Assembly: GCA_021157925.1 (NCBI GenBank)
Contig: JAGGVR010000149.1
Span: forward strand, 1 to 49,236
DNA length: 49,236 nt
Origin: Staphylothermus sp.
GTDB lineage: Archaea > Thermoproteota > Thermoprotei_A > Sulfolobales > Desulfurococcaceae
Reading direction: 5' to 3'
The notes beneath the pieces are model-generated. The model saw only the letters and a program-made list of their open reading frames with translations, was not told the DNA's origin and made no database searches. Shown here piece after piece: positions 45,211 to 47,142 of the stretch (the first letter of the stretch is position 1; each line of letters opens with the position of its first letter). The position numbers and the translations under genes are program-made.

Positions 45211-46104
45211 TTGCCGTATCTAAGAGTAATAAGATTATTTGATCCATGGAAAAGTCCTTTATGTACTTGTCCGAGAAAATATAGTTTACACCCATATACT
45301 GGGTGCAGCCATTTCTGCCTATACTGTTATGCTACTTCATACATAGGTAGAAGACCAAGTACCCCTAAAAACATGTTTCTAAGAAACCTTCGATCAGATT
45401 TAAAGAGGATCAATAAGAACTTAGTTGTTGAGATAAGTACTAGTAGTGACCCATATCCTCCTGTAGAGAAGTGGTTATTATTAACAAGGAAAACACTAGA
45501 ACTACTTGTTGAACACAAGGTTAAGACATTAATAACAACTAAGGGATCTATCGTCGTCAGAGACATAGATCTATTGTTAATGACGCCATCAGCCGTAATG
45601 ATAACAATAACTACACTAGACAATAGAATAGCTAAGATCATGGAACCAGGAGCTCCAACACCAGACAAACGAGTAGAAGCTGTAAAACAACTTGCTGAAT
45701 CGAAAATACCTGTAGGTGTGAGAATTGACCCCATCATTCCTGGGATCAATGATGATTTCTATTCAATAAAAGAACTAATTGACCAAGTTATTGATGCCGG
45801 CGCAAAACACGTAGTAGTTTCAACTTATAAGGCTAGATGGGATAACTTGAAAAGAATGATCGAGGCTTTTCCAGAGTGTTCAGAGTATTGGCAAAAACTA
45901 TATATTATAGATGGAAAACGTATTCATGGATACATGTATTTAGATAGAAGCCTCCGCGAAAAGATCTTGAAACCGATCATAGACTATGCACAATCAAAGA
46001 AAATAACAATAGCTACCTGTAGAGAAGGATTGGGGCCAGAATATTTCAAAGCACCAAGTTGTGACGGAACACATTTGATAAGATTTCATCCTGGAATGAA
46101 ATAG
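45211..46104 (+). CDS. Radical SAM protein, SplB-like
   Basis: 'LHPYTGCSHFCLYCYATSYIGR' CX3CX2C, 'STSSDPYPPVE'; TTG start. Confidence 0.88.
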   Translation: MPYLRVIRLFDPWKSPLCTCPRKYSLHPYTGCSHFCLYCYATSYIGRRPSTPKNMFLRNLRSDLKRINKNLVVEISTSSDPYPPVEKWLLLTRKTLELLVEHKVKTLITTKGSIVVRDIDLLLMTPSAVMITITTLDNRIAKIMEPGAPTPDKRVEAVKQLAESKIPVGVRIDPIIPGINDDFYSIKELIDQVIDAGAKHVVVSTYKARWDNLKRMIEAFPECSEYWQKLYIIDGKRIHGYMYLDRSLREKILKPIIDYAQSKKITIATCREGLGPEYFKAPSCDGTHLIRFHPGMK

Positions 46105-46180
46105 TGTACCCCGCCCGACCGACCTCCTTCATATCCATCCCCCATAAGGGGTCTCTGGAGGTGTGAGGAGGCGGGGCCTG
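46105..46180 (-). ncRNA. Candidate single-hairpin H/ACA guide RNA
   Basis: Minus strand CCCCGCC-TCCTCAC-ACCTCC-AGAGA-CCCC-TTATG-GGGG-ATGGATATGAA-GGAGGT-CGGTCG-GGCGGGG-T-ACA: 7-bp lower stem, pocket, 6-bp upper stem, k-turn-like loop, ACA 14 nt from upper stem; GC island in an AT-rich intergenic region. Confidence 0.75.
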
Positions 46181-46202: not shown

Positions 46203-46211
46203 CTTAAATAA
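46203..46211 (-). promoter_or_regulatory. Possible TATA box (TTATTTAAG) for the candidate H/ACA RNA
   Basis: About 26 nt upstream of the predicted RNA 5' end. Confidence 0.4.
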
Positions 46212-46533
46212 TTAATTTATGAACGCAATTCCACCATGGTATAGTTCAATATAGTATTTGGAGAACTAATTAATTCATATACCTATGACGAACTAATGAA
46301 AAGGGATGTTGACGTTGAAAAAAGTTTATCGAGACACGGCGCATATAATGCTCCTAAAAATGTTAATGCCCTAGTGTTTTACTAGTCCAACTAATACTAA
46401 TGTTAACTCAATAATGATCGGGGTAATACTAGGAATACAACTGTCCATTGAAAACAATGTCCAAAATTTTAATACTTAGATAAACTATGTGAAGTAATTG
46501 TACTAAGCAGACTATAGAAGAGATGATTCTGCC

Positions 46534-47142
46534 TTGGTTGAAGGCTTAGCCCGTAGTGCTATGATTGAAATAGCTACTTTCATAATGAGATCTATAGAGA
46601 TTATTAGTGAAGAAGAAAAGAACAAAATGATCGAGACACTAGTAGACGCCTATAATAGAGGAGCACATATTCTAGTAATGGGTGCCGGAAGAAGTGGTTT
46701 AGTCGGCAAAGCATTCGCTATGAGGCTCCTACATCTTGGGTTCCAAGTATATGTGTTAGGCGAGACAATAGTACCCAGAATCAAAGAAGGAGACGTAGTA
46801 ATAGCTATATCTGGTTCCGGACGCACAAGACTCATTGTTACAGCTGCAGAAGCAGCTAAACATGTTGGTGCAAAAGTAATTGCTTTAACAACCTATCCAG
46901 ACAGCCCATTAGGTAAACTAGCTGATATAGTAGTTAGAGTACCTGGAAGAACAAAGATAGCGAAGGAGGAAGACTATTTTGCCAGACAGATCCTTGGAAT
47001 ACACGAGCCCCTAGCCCCTCTAGGCACATTGTTCGAAGACACTTCTCTTGTTTTTCTAGACAGTGTAGTAGTTGAACTCATGAATAAGTTGGGAAAAACA
47101 GAAGAAGACCTTAGAAACGCACACGCAAACATAGAGCTCTAA
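46534..47142 (+). CDS. hxlB: 6-phospho-3-hexuloisomerase (SIS domain)
   Basis: '[33 protein letters not shown]', '[10 protein letters not shown]', '[15 protein letters not shown]'; TTG start. Confidence 0.92.

Follow-up and report, generated by a model that had tools for sequence, protein, structure and literature searches.

The question raised by this locus is whether the GC-rich hairpin that lies right after the stop codon of a radical SAM gene belongs to the end of that gene or is an RNA gene in its own right, read from the other strand of the window (the whole stretch of 49,236 nucleotides of Staphylothermus sp. DNA analysed here). We are highly confident that the minus strand from 46177 to 46105 encodes a canonical single-hairpin archaeal H/ACA guide (10/5/9-like) sharing the 23S rRNA target of Pab91, at which Cbf5 would make a pseudouridine.

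The predicted guide sRNA is 73 nt long (46105-46177, minus strand, 5' end at 46177), its ends being placed from the structure, and all features of the RNA described below lie on this strand. From 46177 to 46105 it reads GCCCCGCCU CCUCAC ACCUCC AGAGA CCCC UUAU GGGG GAUGGAUAUGAA GGAGGU CGGUC GGGCGGGGU ACA. The lower stem, P1, is formed by GCCCCGCCU (46169-46177) and GGGCGGGGU (46108-46116) with nine of nine positions paired, a count of 9 bp that includes the terminal G.U and U.G pairs. The upper stem, P2, is formed by ACCUCC (46157-46162) and GGAGGU (46122-46127) and is fully paired at its six positions, as an earlier note on this DNA had it. Between the stems lie the 5' guide arm CCUCAC (46163-46168), in which CUCAC pairs with a target GUGAG, and the 3' guide arm CGGUC (46117-46121), which pairs with GACCG. 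Above P2, a k-turn region made up of the non-bulged GA strand AGAGA (46152-46156) and the bulged strand GAUGGAUAUGAA (46128-46139) leads to an apical stem in which CCCC (46148-46151) pairs with GGGG (46140-46143). The box ACA (46105-46107) is separated from P2 by the five guide bases CGGUC and nine stem bases, which gives exactly the spacing of 14 nt that the earlier note had read from the sequence. This is the distance expected of productive archaeal guides, in which the ANA box lies 14-15 nt 3' of the upper stem (PMC4652768). Both the sequence and the geometry of the single-hairpin layout are therefore as had been claimed.

The folding check proposed for the minus strand gave a divided answer. 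The H/ACA fold is obtained at -34.7 kcal/mol when the pocket is constrained to stay open, as it is with the proteins bound, but the unconstrained minimum (-36.5 kcal/mol) pairs part of a pocket arm and so partly closes the pocket, and opening it costs about 2 kcal/mol. The fold z-score of the RNA is -2.6. A descriptor of the exact pocket matches once in the window and never in 200 Markov-resampled windows (one strand each), and the generic 9-bp/6-bp geometry is likewise matched once in the window and in none of 20 resampled windows. The covariance model R1 scores the guide at 93.8 bits as its sole match within the window. The signal for a guide RNA is thus far above chance.

Whether this structure is maintained by selection was judged from its homologs. 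A pocket-pattern search of 119 genomes of the order returned many chance matches together with the 36 structured copies that were used. The homologs of alignment A2 were selected by the pattern CUCAC/CGGUC, which fixed the arms beforehand, and the invariance of the arms among them is therefore partly a matter of construction. The position of P2 was set by distance from the arms alone, and 107 of its 126 cells are paired, whereas 10000 shuffles never gave more than 95. An alignment of 14 sequences has 93.2% of its cells paired, a level reached in none of 500 shuffles; 11 of the 19 pairs have changed on both sides, and pairing falls to 38-55% once the partners are shifted by 1 to 3 columns. Compensatory changes affect all four pairs of the apical stem in the same alignment. 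The earlier note had made the absence of such changes in related genomes a ground for rejecting the guide; they are found in both stems as well as in the apical stem, with homologs in dozens of genomes. The box ACA is invariant in alignment A2.

Of 400 genomes of the phylum, 57 have a covariance model match, and homologs occur in most families of the order, one per genome in every case save the window's own metagenome-assembled genome (MAG). The model was trained on sequences with the same arms, which are not required for a match, and the search recovered CUCAC and CGGU in most matches, the drift being concentrated in the final base of the 3' arm. This base is C, U, A or G in the more distant homologs found with the model, giving for instance CGGUA, and two matches (G020 and G030) have AAA in place of ACA. 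CUCAC is also present in the Pab91 consensus. In the nearest relative (L011) the RNA is identical to that of the window and the flanks differ. Conservation and covariation together settle the reality of the H/ACA RNA. Separately, we considered whether the second copy in the window's own MAG (G000:C134, L091) might be a gene duplication, and rejected this; its contig is a version of the window region at 91-95% identity, most plausibly a strain variant within the MAG.

The genomic surroundings bear on the rival reading of the hairpin as an intrinsic transcription terminator, or as a structured 3' UTR, of the radical SAM gene (SPL/PA0069-like; Pfam PF04055 and PF20903), which occupies 45211-46104 on the plus strand. 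The position of a GC-rich hairpin right after the stop codon, tail-to-tail with the gene, invites this reading, and the adjacency described in the earlier note is real, with the stop codon at 46102-46104 and the last base of the RNA at 46105. In the relatives, however, at 16 of the 37 named loci carrying the radical SAM gene (L012, L014-L023, L026-L029 and L045), the RNA precedes this gene by about 30-200 nt on the same strand, and at other loci the two are not neighbours at all. Moreover, the pocket, ACA spacing, and k-turn are conserved, and covariation keeps the H/ACA layout of the minus strand. Position and conservation in relatives thus already refute the terminator or 3' UTR, to which we assign next to no probability.

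For the guide RNA, then, the tail-to-tail arrangement reflects a radical SAM gene that has been turned round in the window, L011, and L092. A search of relatives confined to the downstream side of the gene recovered only the L011 guide, since at other loci the guide is mostly upstream; at that distance and on the same strand, it may lie in the radical SAM leader or share its promoter. On the other side of the guide in the window is hxlB (46534-47142, plus strand; 6-phospho-3-hexuloisomerase, TIGR03127, 191.8 bits), and an HxlB-like gene also flanks the guide in L087, L089, L090, L092, and L096. L011 has an extra open frame between guide and hxlB (L011 1633-2801), glycerate 2-kinase-like by eye; the window has, at 46260-46400, no more than a piece resembling the end of this frame, as a deletion would leave. 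A TATA-like element, TTATTTAA (46204-46211, minus strand), lies at -34 to -27 from the 5' end of the RNA and is a putative promoter. Upstream of 32 homologs the sequence is A+T-rich from -36 to -27 and drops in A+T from -26 to -21, as expected of an archaeal TATA box. This context supports reading the guide as an RNA gene of its own.

The identity of the guide follows from its resemblance to a known RNA. Rfam returns no match for the region at the gathering threshold, because the cut-off for Pab91 is high. When the covariance search against archaeal H/ACA models advised by the earlier note is carried out, the best Rfam match is Pab91 (RF02795; 40.3 bits, E=2.8e-6), whose core arms CUCAC/CGGUC are the same. 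The score remains below the gathering score of 71 for RF02795 membership, and the homologs, at 33-44 bits, fall below 71 as well. Pab91 of P. abyssi directs formation of Psi2685 in 23S rRNA in vivo and in vitro (PMC6138745). The window guide shares with this Pyrococcus RNA the core arms CUCAC/CGGUC, a 9-bp C-rich P1, a 6-nt/5-nt pocket, and the ACA at 14 nt, and with arms, pocket, and ACA spacing alike, the 23S target uridine is the same. It differs in being 16 nt longer (73 versus 57 nt), in coming from a different phylum, and in having a CCCC/GGGG apical stem and tandem GA modules where Pab91 has a short apical part of 13 nt. The RNA is a divergent Desulfurococcaceae counterpart and distant relative of the proven Pyrococcus guide, of a kind already known.

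Common descent of the two guides is likely. Convergence, a separate origin of the crenarchaeal guides and of Pab91 with the shared pocket dictated by an invariant target, would concern descent only and is compatible with the identification made here; we regard it as rather unlikely. It gains from the low score (40.3 bits against 71), from a match carried mainly by P1, the arms, and ACA, and from an apical part unlike that of Pab91 (57 versus 73 nt), yet the shared 9-bp C-rich P1, arm sizes, and ACA are more simply explained by a single ancestral guide. Both histories are compatible with the present data.

The target predicted in the earlier note was GACCG-U-N-GUGAG. A 23S rRNA gene was sought in the window's own genome (a MAG that is 87% complete) and none is assembled. 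In relatives the 23S target reads 5'-GACCG-U-C-GUGAG-3', to which the pocket is complementary on both sides of an unpaired U. Family-level relatives for which a 23S is assembled have GACCGUCGUGAG, and GACCGTCGTGAGACAGG is present in every family member whose 23S is assembled and in nearly all members of the order that were checked. The prediction is therefore borne out in the relatives, and the same pocket is that proven for Psi2685 in Pab91. By our own count from A2602 the target is E. coli U2593, and the link to P. abyssi U2685 comes from counting of our own, with an offset of 92, and from the pocket being identical. We infer that the guide directs pseudouridine formation at the uridine of 23S rRNA that corresponds to E. 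coli U2593, next to the peptidyl transferase centre. In a more distant genome (the 23S of G320, L170) the target uridine is replaced by C, with GACCGCCGUGAGG, and this genome has a weak model match with a different pocket.

A real H/ACA RNA might instead have another RNA as its main target (an mRNA, a tRNA, or a second rRNA site), or might be an L7Ae-binding decoy that guides nothing. Targets outside the ribosome have been proposed for archaeal H/ACA guides (PMC4652768), and some homologs have imperfect arms, implying that the outer guide pairs are dispensable or that some copies have drifted. Such a role is nevertheless very improbable, if a shade less so than a terminator, given that both arms fit one highly conserved 23S site in the correct register and that the same pocket is proven for this site in Pyrococcus. 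Among the imperfect arms, CCCAC replaces CUCAC in three genomes of genus g6 (G099, G087, and G007; L128-L130), and the 23S of G007 still has GUGAG, which leaves one C.A mismatch with the CCCAC arm.

With the 23S site as target, the remaining question is whether the guide could work with the usual proteins. The k-turn-like junction described in the earlier note is present as a region, but not quite where it was placed. The element common to all aligned homologs is AUGA(A), directly before the 3' strand of P2 and opposite GA, whereas the GA/GA beside the CCCC/GGGG stem, to which the junction had been assigned, is a second, less general module found in only part of the aligned homologs. In alignments A2 and A3, UG of the AUGA element is invariant and GAGA of the opposite strand near-invariant. 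A k-turn above the upper stem is thus represented by the conserved AUGA opposite GA, a predicted L7Ae site. From the pocket to this proximal k-turn there are six Watson-Crick pairs, an A.A, and two G.A pairs, nine in all where exactly 10 stacked pairs are called for, and the distal reading is asymmetric. Profile searches show that the window's own genome encodes Nop10, L7Ae, and Gar1 above cut-off, and Cbf5 is present in pieces on C100 (11366-11907) and C59 (2-565) of G000, for which reason it falls below the whole-protein cut-off of its family. In the cbf5 gene of G000, which a contig end breaks as well, about 23 nt separate profile positions 71 and 72; this interruption resembles the pre-mRNA intron known in crenarchaeal cbf5 (PMC2738675). 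In the proposed mechanism L7Ae would bind the k-turn, Nop10 would form a bridge, and Cbf5 with Gar1 would grip the lower stem and ACA. The arms CUCAC and CGGUC would then capture 5'-GACCG-U-C-GUGAG-3' of 23S rRNA, and U (U2593 in E. coli, U2685 in P. abyssi) would remain unpaired in the active site, where Cbf5 would isomerize it to pseudouridine. By analogy with Pab91, expression, RNP assembly, and modification probably take place in the window organism too.

The distribution of the guide across the order has one conspicuous gap. All four Sulfolobaceae 23S sequences that were read (L187-L190) have GACCGUCGCGAG instead of GUGAG, and a structured CUCGC guide that would fit this target was found in none of 18 genomes of the family, the only matches lacking an H/ACA layout. 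Weak Sulfolobaceae model matches in G033 and G106 were considered as this guide and rejected, having other pockets; they are at best other H/ACA RNAs. The weak Sulfolobaceae matches at L152 153-221 (minus strand) and L153 180-250 (plus strand) have different arms and are possibly other H/ACA guides. The changed target flank, the lack of a structured CUCGC guide in those 18 genomes and the other pockets of the sole model matches together suggest that the guide may have been lost in Sulfolobaceae with drift of the target. The 23S of G008 (L008 1583-1860/L118, on G008:C31) has an intron of about 250 nt inside the target, inserted at GGTTTAGA^CCGTCGTGAG or one base later and with a bulge-helix-bulge-like base. 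The intron splits the 5' half of the target, and the guide can therefore pair in full only once it has been spliced out; in other archaea, group I introns are known at position 2593 (PMC6125680). Taken as a whole, a history in which a Pab91-type guide is ancient in most of the order, was lost in Sulfolobaceae with the flank change GUGAG to GCGAG (E. coli U2596C), and acts in G008 only after rRNA splicing is one that we put forward tentatively, as a possibility somewhat short of an even chance.

Other known guides place the RNA in the same frame. Pae_sR201 and sR202 of Pyrobaculum have a single hairpin, lower stem, k-turn, and ANA box like the window guide (PMC4652768), with a shortened lower stem where the latter has the full 9 bp. 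Eukaryotic H/ACA snoRNAs share its pocket logic and ACA, but the window guide is a single hairpin with a k-turn and has neither H box nor second hairpin. In the literature searched we found no paper naming the guide in Desulfurococcales, and an earlier mention of a crenarchaeal guide to this site is possible; novelty is limited to its being unreported by Rfam 15 at its own threshold. The finding extends a proven Pyrococcus pseudouridine guide to a large part of a crenarchaeal order, and for many uncultured hyperthermophiles it leads one to expect a specific modification next to the peptidyl transferase centre. Two side questions lend themselves to testing, namely the apparent loss of the guide in Sulfolobaceae, which goes with a corresponding change of the target, and the intron-split target of one relative.
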